64,000 bases of DNA, from assembly GCF_016901995.1 (NCBI RefSeq), contig NZ_JACJLE010000003.1, positions 1 through 64,000 on the forward strand, read 5' to 3'. A program made the position numbers and the translations under genes. Shown here in pieces: positions 3,646 to 64,000 of the stretch. A model generated the notes under the pieces. The model was not told the DNA's origin. It saw only the letters and a list, made by a program, of their open reading frames with translations, and did not search any database. This DNA is from Bacteroides caecigallinarum. GTDB taxonomy: Bacteria; Bacteroidota; Bacteroidia; Bacteroidales; Bacteroidaceae. Each line of letters opens with the position of its first letter. Positions within the stretch are counted from its first letter, which is position 1.

Positions 3646-3934
3646 AAGATTTATTAATCCTGCCAGTTGATTGATATTATTGCGATAAGACAATAATGTC
3701 ATAATTCTAAGTATATTCATACCACATTTCACTTTCACATCCTTCACATATCACTTCAATAACGCATAATAATTATTCTCGTTCTTGCGGTACTTCTTTT
3801 CCATTTCGGAATAGTCAGTTAACTGTCCATCACAAAACTTATAACTTGGGAACATTATGGTTTTCATTTAATTTGTAAATATCTTATAGAATCTCTAAAA
3901 GTACGTTGCAAACAGATATAACTCCTTGTTGTTT
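3646..3934. other. Non-coding first part of the 632-bp gap between convergent genes
   Basis: No convincing gene, RNA or terminator is seen immediately after the DUF1593 stop. The stretch is AT-rich. A 38-codon minus-strand open frame lies within it and the 22-bp-period array A follows at 3935. Confidence 0.4.
3751..3867 (-). other. Possible short ORF or gene remnant, 38 codons
   Basis: A minus-strand frame begins with ATG (MKTIMFPSYKF) and ends in TGA. It is rich in Lys, Asn, Tyr and Glu towards the C-terminus (KKYRKNENNYYALLK). No ribosome binding site or promoter stands out and I do not recognise the family. It may be the tail of a degraded gene, or chance. Confidence 0.2.
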
Positions 3935-4010
3935 GACACGTGTCGGACGAATTGCTGACAGCTGTCAAACGAATTGCCTACACGTGTCAGACAATCGTCC
4001 GACAGCTGTC
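3935..4010. repeat. 22-bp-period palindrome array A (4 units)
   Basis: Four 10-bp palindromic or near-palindromic cores start at 3935, 3957, 3979 and 4001, exactly 22 bp apart. The cores are GACACGTGTC, GACAGCTGTC, TACACGTGTC and GACAGCTGTC, so the centre alternates between CG and GC while the GACA/TGTC arms stay. Linkers are 12 bp and partly alike (GGACGAATTGCT, AAACGAATTGCC). The array lies between the convergent DUF1593 and GH43 genes. Confidence 0.9.
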
Positions 4011-4214
4011 AGACGATAAAGGGTTCCTGGAATTTTAGAACTTGACACAAACAGTCTTTGAATAATTGATAAAATTGGATATGTCTTCCGTGAAAATCCT
4101 GGCATGAGTTTCTGGGTGGAGATAAATTTAAAATCCGAAACTTGAGTTATAATAACAGACACGTTGATATAAAGAGAAATTCTGGTATTGTTCATGTATT
4201 AATCTTTTGAAACG

Positions 4215-18901: not shown

Positions 18902-18950
18902 AAACGTGCGCACGTTTGAACTTAAATGTGCGCACGTTTTACTTAAAACG
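18902..18950. repeat. 22-bp-period palindrome array B (2 units plus a partial third)
   Basis: A perfect 16-bp palindrome AAACGTGCGCACGTTT starts at 18902 and AAATGTGCGCACGTTT starts at 18924, 22 bp apart. A partial third unit (AAACG) begins at 18946, again 22 bp on. The array lies between the stop of the GH43-CBM6 gene and the end of the convergent methyltransferase gene; no conventional terminator is seen there. The core is the same as in array C near 56.8 kb. Confidence 0.88.
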
Positions 18951-18987
18951 ACAGTTCATTTTTTTTAAACGTATCAACATGAAAAAA

Positions 18988-27809: not shown

Positions 27810-28469
27810 ATGAAAGTTATAAACCTTGCAGAAACCAATTCTATACTAAATCAGTTCGTCGCAGAGATGAGAGATGTCAATGTACAGAATGACAGAATGC
27901 GTTTTCGTAGGAATATTGAACGGATAGGAGAGTTGATGGCTTACGAAATCAGTAAAACACTTGATTATTCAACGAAAAAAATCCAGACCCCGTTAGGTGT
28001 TGCCGAAGCCAGCACGCCGGATGACAATATAGTGATAGCAACAGTTTTCAGAGCCGGTCTTCCTTTGCATGCCGGTTTCCTGAATATATTCGATAAGGCT
28101 GGAAATGCGTTTGTTTCGGCTTACAGGTATTATAAGGATAAGGATCATAGAGATCTTGACGTGAGGATAGAATATATCGCAACACCTGATTTGACAAATA
28201 AGACAGTCATATTGGTAGATCCTATGCTTGCTACAGGCGAAAGCCTTGAATTGGCATGGAGAGCCTTTACCACAAAAGGTATTCCTGCGAAGCTTGTCAT
28301 TGCATGTATAATAGCAAGCCGTCCCGGAGTGGAACGTATCAGGAAGTTTTTCGAAGGAAAGGATGTCTCGTTGTGGTGTGGCGTAATAGATCCTGCCATT
28401 GATGAACATTCGTATATAGTTCCCGGATTAGGTGATGCCGGAGATCTTGCTTATGGTGAGAAAATTTAA
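27810..28469 (+). CDS. upp: Uracil phosphoribosyltransferase
   Basis: Converts uracil and PRPP to UMP for pyrimidine salvage. The 219-residue protein has the PRPP loop VDPMLATGESL near residue 135 and the uracil-binding C-terminal GLGDAGDLAYG. FRAGLPLHAGF is the conserved tetramer/active-site segment. Confidence 0.94.
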   Translation: MKVINLAETNSILNQFVAEMRDVNVQNDRMRFRRNIERIGELMAYEISKTLDYSTKKIQTPLGVAEASTPDDNIVIATVFRAGLPLHAGFLNIFDKAGNAFVSAYRYYKDKDHRDLDVRIEYIATPDLTNKTVILVDPMLATGESLELAWRAFTTKGIPAKLVIACIIASRPGVERIRKFFEGKDVSLWCGVIDPAIDEHSYIVPGLGDAGDLAYGEKI

Positions 28470-34201: not shown

Positions 34202-35214
34202 AAGAGCAGGTAAAGTCTCTGTGGAAACTTTGCTTCCCGGACGATTCGGACGATTTCGTCGCACTGTATTTCTCTTCAAGATATACAGACGAAATAAACA
34301 GTGCCATTACGGAAAACGGTAGGGTAGTGTCCGCACTCCAGCGGATACCGTATCCCATGCGGTTTAACGGTGCCGTGATACCGGTGGCATATATATCCGG
34401 AGCATGTACTCATCCCGATTTCCGTTCCAGAGGTCTGATGTCGCGTCTTCTTGATGAGGCGCACAGGAAAATGTATGCAGACGGCAAGTACCTTTCTGTC
34501 CTTATACCTGCCAATGAAGGCTTGGTGAGCTATTATTCCAAGTCCGGTTACGAAATATGTTTTCAACAGGATGAAAAGTTATTAACAGGTATGTGCAAAA
34601 CTGTTGATAACTTTAAAACAGAACTGATATTTAATGAGTTAGACATGTTGAAAAACGAATGTTCCGAAGTGTGCGACTTTATAAACCGACAGTTATCAAC
34701 ATATCAGGCAAGCATACTTCATCCTTTTCAGGATATGAATATAGTCCTTGCCGATCTGACTCTTTCCGGAGGCAAGGTATGGTATGCCAATGATAAAAAC
34801 GGTAATATCCGTTCTGTAGTGCTGCTGATAGCAGACGAAAACTGTATAGTCATAAAGGAACTTCTGTCTGTTGATAATCAGTCGGAAACGGCCATGCTAG
34901 GTTTTATATCCCGCCATTATCCCGGTGTGAAGATAGTAAAACCGTCACCTTGCGGCATGGTGCGTGTGATAAATGCCTACGGAATGCTTGGACTTATGGC
35001 AGGCAGGCTGTCAGGCGGATATGTCGAGATTTACGGTGACAGCGTCATTCCCGAAAACAACGGTTTATATCTTATATCCGACGGCGGTGTATGCCGTAAA
35101 ATAAGCGACAAGGATATTTCTTGTGATACGGAACGTTTAAGACTGCATATCAACAACATGCCTTCCTTGCTGTTCCGTGATATGGAAGCCTATATGAGCC
35201 TTATGCTTGATTGA
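34198..35214 (+). CDS. GNAT-family N-acetyltransferase, two-domain
   Basis: Protein of 338 residues. The N-terminal GNAT domain has GACTHPDFRSRGLMSRLLDEA (acetyl-CoA binding) and GLVSYYSKSGYE. A C-terminal half of about 190 residues resembles the sterol-carrier-like end of Eis-type acetyltransferases, weakly. It overlaps the upstream DUF2156 gene as ATGA, so the two probably work together. Its last 14 nt overlap the 3' end of the convergent cdaA gene. Confidence 0.8.
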   Translation: MKEQVKSLWKLCFPDDSDDFVALYFSSRYTDEINSAITENGRVVSALQRIPYPMRFNGAVIPVAYISGACTHPDFRSRGLMSRLLDEAHRKMYADGKYLSVLIPANEGLVSYYSKSGYEICFQQDEKLLTGMCKTVDNFKTELIFNELDMLKNECSEVCDFINRQLSTYQASILHPFQDMNIVLADLTLSGGKVWYANDKNGNIRSVVLLIADENCIVIKELLSVDNQSETAMLGFISRHYPGVKIVKPSPCGMVRVINAYGMLGLMAGRLSGGYVEIYGDSVIPENNGLYLISDGGVCRKISDKDISCDTERLRLHINNMPSLLFRDMEAYMSLMLD

Positions 35215-38260: not shown

Positions 38261-38286
38261 TTTTTTAATTCTTTATATCATAAACT

Positions 38287-38370
38287 CCACACGCCCGTGT
38301 CGAGTTCTCCACACGCTCGTGTCAAGTACTCCACACGTTCGTGTCGAGTTCTCCACACGGCCGTGTGGAG
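38287..38370. repeat. 22-bp-period palindrome array D (4 units)
   Basis: Four palindromes of the form ACACG-NN-CGTGT start at 38289, 38311, 38333 and 38355, exactly 22 bp apart. The central dinucleotides are CC, CT, TT and GC. Linkers are 10 bp and nearly constant (CGAGTTCTCC, CAAGTACTCC, CGAGTTCTCC). The last unit extends to a perfect 20-bp palindrome (38351-38370). The array lies between murF and the convergent AraC-type gene, with no other terminator visible. Confidence 0.9.
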
Positions 38371-41525: not shown

Positions 41526-41537
41526 AAGATAATGAAT

Positions 41538-41598
41538 AATTAAAAATTAAGAATTAATAATGCCGTATCCACCCATTATTAATTCTTAATTTTTAATT
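41538..41598. repeat. Perfect 25-bp AT-rich inverted repeat between uxuA and the transporter
   Basis: The arms 41538-41562 and 41574-41598 are exact reverse complements, separated by 11 nt. Nearly all bases are A or T. Shorter sequences of the same AATTAAGAATTAAAAATTAA type occur near 35995-36018 and 61651-61690, so this belongs to a dispersed repeat family. Confidence 0.85.
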
Positions 41599-41615
41599 CT
41601 TAATTGAATAATACC

Positions 41616-55225: not shown

Positions 55226-56683
55226 ATGAGCGAAATTCTTTCTTTAGCTCCACAGAATGTGTGGAAACATTTTCATTCAATTACACAAATTCCTCGTCCG
55301 TCAGGACATCTGGAAAAGATTCAGGCTTTCTTACTTGATTTTGGAAAGAAGGCTGATGTTGAAACATTCCAGGATGAGGCAGGAAATATCATTTATCGCA
55401 AACCGGCTACTCCGGGAATGGAGAACCGTAAGACTGTAATTCTTCAGGCACACATGGATATGGTTCCTCAGAAGAATAAGGAAACAGTTCATGATTTTGA
55501 AAAAGATCCAATCCAGACTTTTATTGATGGCGGATGGGTAAAAGCTAAAGGTACTACATTAGGCTCGGATAATGGCATGGGTGTTGCAGCTATTATGGCT
55601 GTAATGGAAGATAAATCGTTGAAACACGGTCCGTTGGTAGCTCTTATCACAGCCGACGAAGAAACAGGTATGTATGGAGCCTTCGGTCTGAAGCCTGGTA
55701 CAATAGAAGGAGATATATTGCTCAATCTCGACTCAGAAGATGAAGGAGAACTTTATATCGGTTGTGCAGGTGGCGAAGATCTTACGGCAACATTGGAATA
55801 TAAAGAAGAAGAAACCGACCCTGAAGATGTGGCATTAAAAGTCACTTTGAAAGGCCTACGCGGAGGTCATTCCGGTATTCAGATAGGGTGGGGACATGCC
55901 AATGCCAATAAACTCATGGCACGTTTCCTCAATCAGGTTATCACATACGATGAGGCATGCCTCGTATCATGGGAAGGCGGAAACATGCGAAATGCAATTC
56001 CTCGCGAATGTGAAGTGGTTATAACAGTTCCTGAAACAGAGGTAGAAGACGTATTGGCTTTTGTAGGCGAATGCGAACAGGTATGGCGTGATGAGTTTGC
56101 CACTATTGAAGATGGCATAACTTTCACTGCTGAACGTGTGGAACTGCCTAAGATGATGGTTCCTGACGAGATAAGAGATAATCTGGTCGATGCAATATTT
56201 GCCTGCCCTAATGGAGTGGAACGCTTTATTCCTACTATACCTGATACAGTAGAAACTTCGTCAAATCTTGCTATAGTGGAGATTGGTGGAGGTAAAGCTG
56301 CTATAAAAGTTCTTACCCGCAGTTCGCGTGAATCAATGAAGGATTACCGTAATACTGCTATTGAAAGCTGCTTCTCAATGGCTGGTATGCATGTAGTCCG
56401 TTCGGGAGGTTATTCAGGTTGGGAACCTAACGTAAATTCGCCTATACTTCATGCTATGAAGGCTTCATATAAGGCGCAGTTTGGAGAAGAGCCTGAAGTA
56501 AAGGTTATACATGCCGGACTGGAATGTGGTATTATTGGTGCCGTAATGCCAGGTTTGGATATGATTTCATTTGGACCTACATTGCAGTGTCCTCACACTC
56601 CGGAAGAACGTTGCCACATACCTTCAGTAAAGAAATTCTATGATTTCCTTACTGCTACTTTGGAAAATACTCCTGTAAAGTAA
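55226..56683 (+). CDS. pepD: Aminoacyl-histidine dipeptidase (M20 family)
   Basis: Cytoplasmic metallodipeptidase of 485 residues. Zinc ligands and catalytic residues appear as LQAHMDMVPQK, GSDNGMG, TADEETGMYGAF and LDSEDEGE, with the C-terminal HAGLECG and FGPTLQCPHTPEERCH. The bacterial PepD length fits. Confidence 0.94.
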   Translation: MSEILSLAPQNVWKHFHSITQIPRPSGHLEKIQAFLLDFGKKADVETFQDEAGNIIYRKPATPGMENRKTVILQAHMDMVPQKNKETVHDFEKDPIQTFIDGGWVKAKGTTLGSDNGMGVAAIMAVMEDKSLKHGPLVALITADEETGMYGAFGLKPGTIEGDILLNLDSEDEGELYIGCAGGEDLTATLEYKEEETDPEDVALKVTLKGLRGGHSGIQIGWGHANANKLMARFLNQVITYDEACLVSWEGGNMRNAIPRECEVVITVPETEVEDVLAFVGECEQVWRDEFATIEDGITFTAERVELPKMMVPDEIRDNLVDAIFACPNGVERFIPTIPDTVETSSNLAIVEIGGGKAAIKVLTRSSRESMKDYRNTAIESCFSMAGMHVVRSGGYSGWEPNVNSPILHAMKASYKAQFGEEPEVKVIHAGLECGIIGAVMPGLDMISFGPTLQCPHTPEERCHIPSVKKFYDFLTATLENTPVK

Positions 56684-56705: not shown

Positions 56706-56752
56706 GCCAGCCAATTCATTGTCAGTAAATGATGAATTGGCTGGCATTTTTT
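56706..56752. terminator. Bidirectional terminator after pepD
   Basis: A perfect 14-bp stem (GCCAGCCAATTCAT with ATGAATTGGCTGGC) with a 12-nt loop is followed by a T-run on each strand. Confidence 0.88.
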
Positions 56753-56774
56753 ATGACTTAAAAAATGTAAAATA

Positions 56775-56860
56775 AAACGTGCGCACATTCGACTTGAAGC
56801 GTGCGCACATTCTAACTAAAACGTGCGCACGTTTTGCCTTAAATGTGCGCACGTTTTTTT
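56775..56860. repeat. 22-bp-period palindrome array C (4 units)
   Basis: The 8-bp core GTGCGCAC occurs at 56779, 56801, 56823 and 56845, exactly 22 bp apart, each within a 16-bp palindrome-like block (AAACGTGCGCACGTTT in its perfect form) and a 6-bp linker. The array lies between pepD and the convergent tmRNA gene and is followed by a T-run. Same family as array B. Confidence 0.9.
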
Positions 56861-56955
56861 AAAGCCTTTTTTTGAGATATTTGATGATAAAAAATTACCC
56901 TACATTTACTTTTAAAAAAAGTAGATGCAGGGTGATTACTTGATAATTACTTCTG

Positions 56956-57348
56956 TGGACCTGGAGGGAGTCGAACCCTCGTCCAAACAAGGAAGCCATA
57001 TGCTTTCTACATGCTTATCTCTGCCTTCGGTTTTCGTGCATAAGCAAGACCAGAGCCACCCACTTATACCTTAGTCCTTAAATTTCACCGGAGCCGCAGG
57101 ACTAGACTCAAGCTATTCCCGATTTTGCTGCACCGCTATATCAAACGCTTCGGAACAAGAGCTTTTGAGCGATGTCTCGTTTCTATCACTGTGACAGAAA
57201 TAAAGCTAATCTACTGTACTTCGATTAAGCAGCGAGAGCATAGTTTTCGTTGCCAGATAATTGTTCAGTAACTGAGATTATAGTGCAAATCACTGACGCA
57301 CTGCATGCTTACATACCACATCTCTCGCTGTCAAAACCAAACAAGCCC
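56956..57348 (-). ncRNA. ssrA: Transfer-messenger RNA
   Basis: The minus-strand 3' end has the tRNA-like T arm GAGGGTTCGACTCCCTC and the acceptor CAGGTCC, which pairs with GGGCTTG at 57348-57342, including G-U pairs. The tag frame runs 57254 to 57225 and encodes GNENYALAA followed by TAA, in the style of Bacteroidales tags. CCA is not encoded. The 5' end is inferred from pairing. Confidence 0.93.
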
Positions 57349-61595: not shown

Positions 61596-61649
61596 TTAAT
61601 TAGCTTCGCTGACTTGCAGTTCTTAATTAGCTTCGCTGACTTGCAGTTC
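61596..61649. repeat. Two tandem 27-bp repeats plus AT-rich tail
   Basis: A 27-bp unit beginning TTAATTAGCTTCGCTGACTT occurs at 61596 and 61623 without change. It is followed by AATTTTTAATTATTAATTTT-like sequence to about 61690. The repeats fill the gap between the receptor gene and the lipoprotein gene. Confidence 0.85.
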
Positions 61650-61688
61650 CCAATTTTTAATTATTAATTTTTAATTATTCATTCTTAA

Positions 61689-64000
61689 TTAAAGCGTATA
61701 TGAAACTCCTATCTCGAAGCTGCTTCCGCGTTTGAATCTTTCCACTTCAAGTGTCTCGCCTGTCTTTGGAACTTCCTGGCGGAAGATTACAGGTTGGTTG
61801 AGGAGGTCGTTGACCTGGAGTTTTACCGATACGCGGCTGTTCAGCTTCATGCTTCCGGCAAAGTTCAGTGTGTGGACTGCCTGCTGCTTTACGTCGCCAA
61901 GTCCTGAGATACCTACTGTGTGGATGCGCGGTCCCTGAAGGTTGTAGAGCAGGGCGGCTGATATCTGCCTGTCATCGTCTATGCGCGGGCTGTAGGTCAG
62001 GTCGGCATTGACCAGATAAGGTGACGCTCCCTGCAGTGCTCGCTGGTCGTTGGTATATACTCCTCCTTCGGGAAGCTTCACGTTGGTGTACATGAACGAG
62101 GCGTTTGCTCCCAGACGCAGGTCTTTGACGATTTCCTTGCGGAACTCCACTTCCACTCCGGCTGCCATACCGTTGTCGGCATTTCGGAACGACTGTACTG
62201 TGGCTCCTCCGGAGAGTTCCTGGATTCGTTCTATCGGACTCTCGAGGTGCTTGTAGTAGGCGGTGGCGGAAATCATGTCGCCGTTCTGACGGAAGAGTTC
62301 GTAGCGGAGGTCGAAGTTGTAGTTGTAGCCGTTCTGCAGGTCGGCGTTACCACGTATCTGCGACGCGCCGTATGATTCCTGATAGAGGAACGGGGCCATC
62401 TCGATGAACGACGGGCGGGTCACTGTGCGCGAGAATGAGAAGCGCAGGCTGTTGTCGCTGTTCATCTGATAGCGGAAGTTGGCTGCAGGGAAGAGGTCGC
62501 CTGTGTTCAGCTCGCTTCTCTCGGGGCGTCCGCCGTCGGTGTGGTAGTCAACCCACTGGCGTGAGTATTCGTATCTCACTCCGAGGTTCAGAAGAAGAGA
62601 CTCTATCGGATAGTAGTCGGCAAGGATATATCCGGCAATGATGCTGTTGCCTGCACGGTACTGGTCTTTCGGCTGGTTCACCAGATTGATGGTGAGCAGT
62701 TCGTTCTCGATGTTCTCCTGATTGATATATTCGCTCGGGGTGTAAATGTCTGTGATTGTGGGGTTCAGCTTGTTCAGGTTGTAGTAGAAGCGTGTGGCCT
62801 TGTAGTCGCGCTGTTTGTCCTTGTAGGTCACTCCGGCCTGTATCTTGTTGCTGTCGCCGAATTTATAGTCGCTCATGAGGTTTGCCACCCATTCGTTTTC
62901 GTCCAGCGATCCGAAGTATCTCATCGTCTCCTGGCGGTTCAGCTTGAAGAGCTCCAGCGAGTTGTCGTCCTGCACTTCGAACATCACCTGGCGTCTGTCC
63001 GGTTCGGCGCTCGATGTCTTGCTGTACGAGCCGCTCCAGTTGATGCTCCATGCGTCCTTTATGTAGTGCTTGCCGCTGAGCTGGTGGTTCTGCAGGCTGT
63101 AGATGTGCGACACGCTGTTGCTGCCTATCAGATTGTGGTCTTCGTAATCCACACCTTCGCGGCGCATGTATGTGTCCGATGCGTTGCGGGCGTAGAAGAA
63201 AGTATAGCTCAGCAGATCCTGCTTCCTGAACGAGTAGCCTACGCTGGCAAGTGAGGCAAGCTTCAATTCGTTGGTATAGCTGTCGTACGAGAAGTTGTTC
63301 AGTGTGTTTCCTGTGGCTTCAAGCGTGCGTACGTATGCGTCCTTCATCAGCTGCTGTCCGTTGCTCACGCCTATGGATGCCAGCACGCTCAGGTTGTTTC
63401 CTGCCAGGTCGAAGTTCTTTCCGAAGCCTATGTTTCCTCCGAACTCAGGCAGGGCTTTTCTTTTTGATACGTCGAATGTGGTGTTGAAAAGCTTGTTGTG
63501 GCGGGCATAGTTTTCGAAATCCGTCAGATCCATTTCTGTATATGTGCTGTTCAGCTTTGGAGTTCTGAAGAGAGTTCCTTCGTGATCCATGCGGTACATG
63601 TCCTGGCCCAGAGTATTGAATTTGCCGCCTGTATTGAATGAAATGTTGAAGAAATCTTCGCCTGTCTGTTCTTTCGTGCCTATATCGATGTGCGCTCCGG
63701 AATAGTCGGCGAAAGTGTTTGCCTCATATACCTTGCTCACTGTGATGTTCTTCACTGTGGATGTAGGGAATATGTCGAGCTGGATAAGCTTGTTGTCCGG
63801 ATTAGGCGATGCTATCGGAAGTCCGTTCAGTGTGGTGGTGCTGTATCTGTCGCCCAGACCGCGCACTATTATCTGTCCTGCCGATGCGATTGATATTCCT
63901 GATATCTTTTTCACGCCTTCGGCCACGTTCGAAATACCTTTTGTGCTCATCTCCTTTGCACCGAGGTTCTCTATCGCCACGCTCGATTTCTGTCTCTCCA
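61689..64000 (-). CDS. TonB-dependent outer-membrane receptor, partial
   Basis: The C-terminal 770 residues of a TonB-dependent receptor; the 5' end lies beyond the window. The plug domain is visible near the edge (GISIASAGQIIVRGLGDRYSTTTLNGLPIASPNPD, shown in part) and the rest is a beta-barrel with many aromatic strands ending in FEIGVSYTL, the outer-membrane insertion signal. A SusC-type carboxypeptidase-like domain may lie upstream. No SusD is next to it; the lipoprotein at 59188 takes that position. The frame is open through position 64000, and a GTG near 63980 is not a start. Confidence 0.92.
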   Translation of the reverse strand, partial: ERQKSSVAIENLGAKEMSTKGISNVAEGVKKISGISIASAGQIIVRGLGDRYSTTTLNGLPIASPNPDNKLIQLDIFPTSTVKNITVSKVYEANTFADYSGAHIDIGTKEQTGEDFFNISFNTGGKFNTLGQDMYRMDHEGTLFRTPKLNSTYTEMDLTDFENYARHNKLFNTTFDVSKRKALPEFGGNIGFGKNFDLAGNNLSVLASIGVSNGQQLMKDAYVRTLEATGNTLNNFSYDSYTNELKLASLASVGYSFRKQDLLSYTFFYARNASDTYMRREGVDYEDHNLIGSNSVSHIYSLQNHQLSGKHYIKDAWSINWSGSYSKTSSAEPDRRQVMFEVQDDNSLELFKLNRQETMRYFGSLDENEWVANLMSDYKFGDSNKIQAGVTYKDKQRDYKATRFYYNLNKLNPTITDIYTPSEYINQENIENELLTINLVNQPKDQYRAGNSIIAGYILADYYPIESLLLNLGVRYEYSRQWVDYHTDGGRPERSELNTGDLFPAANFRYQMNSDNSLRFSFSRTVTRPSFIEMAPFLYQESYGASQIRGNADLQNGYNYNFDLRYELFRQNGDMISATAYYKHLESPIERIQELSGGATVQSFRNADNGMAAGVEVEFRKEIVKDLRLGANASFMYTNVKLPEGGVYTNDQRALQGASPYLVNADLTYSPRIDDDRQISAALLYNLQGPRIHTVGISGLGDVKQQAVHTLNFAGSMKLNSRVSVKLQVNDLLNQPVIFRQEVPKTGETLEVERFKRGSSFEIGVSYTL

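Follow-up and report, generated by a model that had tools for sequence, protein, structure and literature searches.

Intergenic palindrome arrays of Bacteroides caecigallinarum and its genus share a period of mostly 22 bp across unrelated sequence families

The genome of Bacteroides caecigallinarum carries, between its genes, short arrays of palindromic units that have unrelated cores and one common period of 22 bp. Other members of the genus have such arrays too, frequently close to the ends of genes, with a period of 22 or at times 21 bp, equal to two helical turns. Known bacterial repeat families are defined by their sequence, whereas here it is the helical period that stays constant across unrelated families, within one genome and across the genus, and this shared period points to a reader of DNA geometry in these gut bacteria. 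We tentatively read the period lock as a constraint at the level of DNA whose most likely cause is a putative cooperative DNA-binding protein, a view that we hold with somewhat more doubt than confidence.

Arrays and convergent gene pairs in the window

The stretch of DNA analysed here (the window) comprises 64,000 nucleotides. Between a pepD-like gene and ssrA, four copies of GTGCGCAC start at 56779, 56801, 56823 and 56845, and their spacing is exactly 22 bp, just as an earlier note on this DNA had described for positions 56775-56860. The three further period-22 arrays that it had mentioned are also present. The four arrays, and the features around the first of them, are as follows.

55226 to 56683, plus strand: M20 peptidase gene (pepD-like), left neighbour of the pepD-ssrA array
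56706 to 56745, plus strand: separate intrinsic terminator of pepD, before the array, with a 17-bp stem followed by ATTTTTT
56773 to 56857, no strand: pepD-ssrA array of four units, period 22, core AAACGTGCGCACGTTT (with variants) plus a 6-bp linker
56893 to 56937, minus strand: separate ssrA-side hairpin beyond the array, with a T-run on the minus strand, from the fold
56955 to 57348, minus strand: tmRNA (ssrA), right neighbour of the array
3932 to 4016, no strand: second array, four units, period 22, core TGACA(CG/GC)TGTCA, 10-bp linker
18902 to 18961, no strand: third array, core AAACGTGCGCACGTTT, period 22; two of its units are clear and one more is degenerate
38285 to 38370, no strand: fourth array, four units, period 22, core CTCSACACGNNCGTGTSGAG (ACACG superfamily)

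The pepD-ssrA array, which in the window's genome (G000; 3.77 Mb in 253 contigs) belongs to the AAACG superfamily, lies between two separate terminator-like hairpins. Both hairpins recur in the ortholog G018, and there the counterpart of the ssrA-side hairpin passes the strict terminator scans that do not list it in G000. The possibility that the array is a conserved part of ssrA was rejected: of 30 ssrA loci in other species, 26 were readable (ARAGORN placed no tmRNA in four), and a 22-bp array 3' of ssrA was found besides G000 only in G018 and G015. The ssrA locus of G033 scored 8.5 at period 20, from a simple direct repeat. RNA genes inside the arrays were also rejected, since no array, either in the window or in the seven other stretches scanned, is covered by an Rfam family that reaches its gathering score.

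All four arrays of the window lie between convergent transcription units, a claim of the earlier note that the neighbouring genes on both sides bear out: Sde182-like and GH43 genes flank the array at 3932-4016, GH43-CBM6 and a THUMP-like methyltransferase-type protein that at 18902-18961, and a Mur ligase and an AraC-type regulator that at 38285-38370. A GH43 glycosidase gene thus adjoins two of the window's arrays, 3932-4016 and 18902-18961. A fifth array on the same contig beyond the window (C112:82318-82369) is convergent too. Four convergent pairs in the window were counted as array-free, and the proposal that these have ordinary terminators instead held for three of them. The pairs at 28469/28530 and 44510/44594 have one strong hairpin each, and the tRNA-Gln pair, convergent with the next minus-strand gene (49856/49934), has two ordinary hairpins; at 35214/35201, where the proposal failed, the genes overlap.

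One period across families and genomes

When gaps of 5-35 were allowed between copies of GTGCGCAC in the whole of G000, 21 of 21 pairs had a gap of 14, which equals period 22, and the pair pattern read backwards gave 0 matches. The pair is present in 4 of 40 genomes, G000 included (G000 21, G018 2, G015 1, G006 1), and the single pair of G006 has a gap of 15, or period 23. Pairs of ACACGNNCGTGT, also searched with free gaps, were at period 22 in 36 of 36 cases and occurred, among 25 genomes, in G000 and G015 only. Pairs of AAACGN6CGTTT numbered 146 in G007, 180 in G023, 156 in G008 and 118 in G003, with 0 in G011, G002, G017 and G048, and the motif read backwards gave no pairs. For G023, 50 places of the 180 were listed, 45 of them spaced 22 and 5 spaced 44; among the matches listed, a few G008 pairs are 21 apart, beside T and A runs, and single pairs outside G008 are 42 or 43 apart. 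Viral contigs gave 0 matches to each of two family patterns.

Searches that did not start from a family gave mainly the same period. TRF on 434 kb of G000 reported 18 intergenic period-22 rows, which partly overlap and represent several unrelated cores. A strict scan for palindrome arrays, its period left free between 16 and 40, returned periods 22 and 33 only, and 0 in shuffles; a looser scan showed most of the period-33 rows to be these arrays matched across 1.5 units, and it also listed periods of 44, 55 and a few scattered others. Within the window alone, simply counting palindrome pairs showed no clear peak at 22. We then counted palindromic intergenic arrays by TRF on 29 contigs from 24 genomes. 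In the genus (1.62 Mb), period 22 accounted for 22 arrays and period 21 for 10, and single arrays had periods of 23, 24, 41 and 44; ten other genera of the family (396 kb) had two at 22 and one at 18, and four genomes of other families (400 kb) had none.

A sequence-blind scan, in which dyads were scored at every period from 15 to 35 in intergenic regions, passed 57 regions in the genus (1.62 Mb), of which 43 had period 22 and 10 period 21, and the remaining 4 had others. Among the 10 rows at 21 are two coding-like ones (G023 97477 and G007 22785) and some weak ones; G011 98163 was left out, being probably inside rRNA (tRNA-Ile and tRNA-Ala follow). Shuffles gave 0 regions. Six of seven regions in the ten other genera of the family were at 22, the one region in other families was at 21, and none of 55 regions in 100 kb of E. 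coli K-12 had an array. The best direct lag of the 43 arrays with z >= 9 was 22 in 34 and 21 in 9. AT-rich repeats with periods of 7, 14 or 21 are common in intergenic regions (for example L022:2138-2187, L028:17552-17622, and window 41529-41605 and 61652-61691) and can be mistaken for 21-bp arrays. Outside the 22-bp class, the window also has a perfect tandem duplication of 27 bp (61596-61649), which lies between two minus-strand genes.

Given the 21 of 21 spacing, the 0 matches to the reversed pattern, the 0 in shuffles and the 0 of 55 regions in E. coli, the period-22 arrays are not a product of chance. Site spacing is fixed in helical turns whatever the sequence, and the suggestion that the families have a geometry in common, and not a sequence, was sound, for unrelated cores share one period. 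Other periods being equally common, which the earlier note had named as evidence against it, was not what we saw.

The lengths of arm, centre and linker vary by family and their sum is 22, made up as 16+6 in the AAACGTGCGCACGTTT family and as 20+2 in that of CTCSACACGNNCGTGTSGAG. Among 52 arrays, 26 have about four units; fewer have three (9), two (8) or one (4), and runs of five (3) or six (2) also occur. Array ends and unit counts are rough, and several arrays of four units by eye were measured shorter. In the AAACG family, the outer pentamers and their 11-bp alternation are the sole constants. We compared 67 units, from the listed places in G023, with shuffled halves, and found inner pairs to be complementary less often: in 29 units where 39.3 were expected, in 31 where 36.0 were, and at the centre in 2 where 23.7 were. 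Pairs in the linker were low at two of three positions (7 against 13.8 and 7 against 12.5) and not clearly low at the third (18 against 21.6). The low complementarity at the centre may reflect avoidance of perfect palindromes, or it may reflect descent from one polar, non-palindromic sequence copied in both orientations; because of the latter option, it is by itself no argument for a binder. In the linkers of the GTGCGCAC pairs, read by eye, exactly one of two flanking CpG sites is kept in 20 of 21. Since the inner pairs of AAACG units and the linkers of GTGCGCAC pairs behave in this way, the constant element in these two families is an inverted half-site every 11 bp and not a perfect palindrome.

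Position, folding and turnover of the arrays

Arrays with the 22-bp period were convergent in 20 of 43 regions, compared to 121 of 830 scanned (Fisher p = 2e-7), so the enrichment at convergent ends expected by the earlier note was found, and a lack of it, which would have spoken against that note, was not. When four arrays facing tRNA-Lys, FopS sRNA or tmRNA were reassigned, 24 of 43 were convergent, with a p of 2e-10 that is too good because the RNA-gene correction was applied at array loci only. Gene calls for these comparisons came from a crude ORF scorer, and the figures are approximate. The arrays are not exclusive to convergent ends: 23 of the 43 lie elsewhere as called, or 19 after the four RNA-gene corrections. 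The 21-bp rows had no significant convergent enrichment (3 of 10). Extrapolation from 12 regions in 434 kb puts the number of loci in the order of 100 per genome. An sRNA of the FopS family (RF04319; L032:2122-2188, minus strand) is convergent to a mixed AAACG-type array (L032:2005-2095).

The position of the arrays would suit bidirectional terminators or 3'-end protectors, whose hairpins, taken as serial or as single long RNA hairpins, would serve both convergent genes and would have been multiplied by unit duplication. Besides the convergent enrichment, this reading draws on the folding of many arrays as long hairpin(s) on both strands (most z about -3 to -10, a few weaker), on the 17-54 bp that are all that three of five C112 arrays leave from stop codon to array on either side, and on the ends of AAACG-type arrays, which are A-rich on the left and T-rich on the right (15 arrays, p = 0.002), partly through their own AAA/TTT arms. 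On the other hand, the 25 non-AAACG arrays show no such end polarity and if anything the reverse (p = 0.07), and over 43 arrays with rough ends there was none. Among 22 convergent arrays listed by hand (20 with period 22 and two with 21; 44 sides), 15 sides leave less than 45 bp. The remaining 29 leave 45 bp or more, and 12 of them have their own strict terminator, pepD included, whereas 17 have none.

Folding did not favour the transcribed strand either. In 19 tandem contexts it was more stable in 10, the other strand in 8, and the two were equal in 1; without four contexts shown to be convergent, the counts were 7, 7 and 1 of 15, and they became 7, 5 and 1 once two coding-like rows had been dropped too. 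A stability advantage of the transcribed strand in tandem contexts was thus rejected (7 against 7 of 15), and G-T and A-C mismatches in units, at 0.051 and 0.046, showed no strand bias. A global hairpin with its outermost arms paired best was not supported, as the Watson-Crick share was 0.758 for outer arms and 0.769 within units (0.771 for other long-range pairings and 0.712 across linkers). Nothing about hairpins, moreover, requires unrelated cores to keep exactly to 22 bp. Since pepD and ssrA have separate hairpins and the transcribed strand has no bias, termination is not the general answer, and the serial RNA hairpins that the earlier note had offered as one of its two readings lack support as a general account, given also the own terminators on 12 of 29 sides. 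We consider the terminator reading a serious rival, though unlikely overall; AAACG-type arrays or single loci may have a termination role, given the end polarity of the former and the little room at three of five C112 arrays.

Orthologous loci show how the arrays change. Between pepD and ssrA, G015 and G018 (97% pepD identity) have a four-unit period-22 array of the ACACG family. At the 38285 locus, G015 has the same ACACGNNCGTGT core with other outer arms, which is a change of subfamily, and the C112:82318 array is conserved in G018. Among eight array loci compared between G007 and G023, the type was kept in five and the family changed in two, and one was without an array in G023. Two of the five type-keeping loci, 105256 and 122780, have 2 units in one genome against 4 in the other and were counted as same-type arrays. 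At two loci the length difference between orthologous arrays is exactly two units, namely 42 and 44 bp. In AAACG-type arrays of 4-5 units in G023 and G007 (L110/L111 and L089/L090), the end units are kept and the central units change.

Loci without a shared type had another array in 3 of 4 cases, or 4 of 5 with 38285, compared to 0 of 122 array-free loci; with G023 as the reference, one array-free locus (82816) has an array in G007. For the clear cases p ranges from 1e-5 to 5e-5, on 4-5 loci of which the pepD ones were found by targeted search. The 38285 locus was left out of the clear switches as two subfamilies with one ACACGNNCGTGT core. The comparison leaves out AT-rich or coding rows (G000 46045, 70469, 72152 and 89710; G018 56059; G007 22360) as well as ten G018/G015 rows without an array. 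The pepD loci joined it separately, and its G000/G018 rows overlap with those for G000/G015. Across five pairs of the same type, the arrays had 71 substitutions and 1 indel and the flanks 147 and 10 (p = 0.18), a deficit of indels inside the arrays that is suggestive and not significant.

One subfamily has been dispersed as a unit. At least four G000 loci share a left flank of about 42 bp together with the array, at 80-88% identity over about 123 bp:

L027:10944-11075: copy of the composite element
L028:12575-12700: copy of the composite element
L021:17531-17646: copy of the composite element
L011, reverse strand: copy of the composite element

The element consists of about 42 bp, from TGACCG to an A-run, and then the GTGCGCAC array, with partial ACCGC/GCGGT ends seen by eye at some copies. 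A search with one copy found further partial copies in G000, G015 and G018 and none in G022, G007 and G023. Such copies could mean that the arrays are selfish or neutral dispersed palindromic elements, REP/BIME- or MITE-like and moved by a putative enzyme, with convergent ends as tolerant landing places and the 22-bp period set by the moving or copying enzyme. The families do recur at many loci, as the counts of AAACG pairs in G007, G023, G008 and G003 illustrate, and whole units are gained or lost. However, the known REP route of RAYT/Y1 transposition was rejected for G000, where PF01797 had 0 matches among 11 scored candidates (the positive control matched in E. coli); by eye there was no clean empty site and no target duplication; and a locus with an array in one species has another type in the other (3/4 or 4/5) more often than array-free loci have any (0-1 of about 122). 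We regard this reading as a serious rival, though an unlikely one, and REP- or MITE-like dispersal may well describe how they move, whatever their role.

A mutational origin would dispense with function and binder altogether, since hairpin-guided template switching and slippage would build tandem palindromes. Template switching at quasi-palindromes is a process proposed in the passages seen of PMC4060949, and unit number does change by whole units. Yet such an origin explains neither why families with unrelated cores, and with arms, loops and linkers of differing length, keep to one period, nor the convergent enrichment, and we regard it as very improbable.

Proposed explanation and comparison with known systems

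A phased half-site array bound cooperatively by a putative protein is our best explanation of the period lock, offered tentatively; a protein on one face of the DNA was also the other reading of the earlier note. The array is a run of alternating inverted half-sites, mostly of about four units and 88 bp. With half-sites one helical turn (11 bp) apart, every dyad would face the same side of the double helix, and a DNA-binding protein, or paralogues with different half-sites, could bind cooperatively along that face. The arrays would spread as small dispersed repeats and be retained mainly at the ends of transcription units, where a bound array would act on DNA, as an insulator, roadblock or topological boundary, and not as an RNA terminator. 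The single period, the alternation of half-sites, the preference for four units, the enrichment at convergent ends, the dispersal of one subfamily with its flank, the turnover of whole units and the replacement of one family by another at a locus come from the sequences themselves; the protein, its cooperativity and its insulating role are inferred. Several observations weigh against this protein-binding explanation. Several unrelated half-sites per genome require several proteins or one reader of shape, and 23 of the 43 22-bp arrays (19 after correction) are not called convergent. Strong folding of many arrays on both strands is what an RNA role would produce, AAACG-type arrays have A-run and T-run ends, and the locus-switch comparison rests on 4-5 loci, with the exception at 82816 giving p = 5e-5.

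A more far-reaching joint reading is that the arrays form a class of chromosomal element that geometry defines, whatever the sequence: inverted half-sites, one to each helical turn over about 88 bp, would be read by diversifying putative binders and mark out insulated stretches of chromosome, with target families replacing one another at fixed sites, mostly the ends of convergent units. Taken together, these parts make an improbable whole. If a protein does bind the arrays, new chromosomal sites numbering about a hundred would come into view in each genome, and the separation of convergent genes would become a testable question. Should they be mobile repeats instead, they would still form a class akin to REP elements that lacks the transposase of these.

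Our search of one literature collection found no description of such helically phased arrays; passages were located by word search in PMC12306157 (a REP survey), PMC3733652, PMC5771137 and PMC4060949, and a word search of PMC2267715 gave nothing matching. The passages seen of PMC3733652 report CGTC-tagged REPs from Bacteroidetes. By eye, the arrays have no GTAG/CGTC tag common to families, and these letters occur inside some units. Like the REP/BIME elements of enterobacteria and Pseudomonas (REPINs), they are short extragenic palindromes, present in many copies, arranged in regular arrays and dispersed, so that they do count as multi-copy extragenic palindromic repeats. Unlike REP/BIME, they have a 21-22 bp period common to unrelated families of one genome, and G000 has no Y1/RAYT transposase.

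Bidirectional intrinsic terminators resemble the arrays in position, in that both strands fold and, for the AAACG family, in ends with A- and T-runs, but many arrays have separate terminators beside them, no T-runs were seen at the ends of other families and the helical period is strict. The subfamily that shares array and flank of about 42 bp at four or more loci recalls a MITE, whereas no consistent terminal inverted repeat or target duplication could be made out and other copies share only the array. A CRISPR array was rejected on repeat layout, the one feature compared, because the period is 22 bp and the linkers are 2-10 bp.

Another parallel in arrangement is offered by the tandem operator or centromere arrays of Arc/ParR/MetJ-type ribbon-helix-helix proteins, in which subsites about one helical turn apart are bound cooperatively along one face. 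The arrays described here have subsites at about the same distance. Whereas the Arc/ParR/MetJ-type arrays are single loci with one cognate protein, those of this genome occupy in the order of 100 loci per genome and belong to several families.
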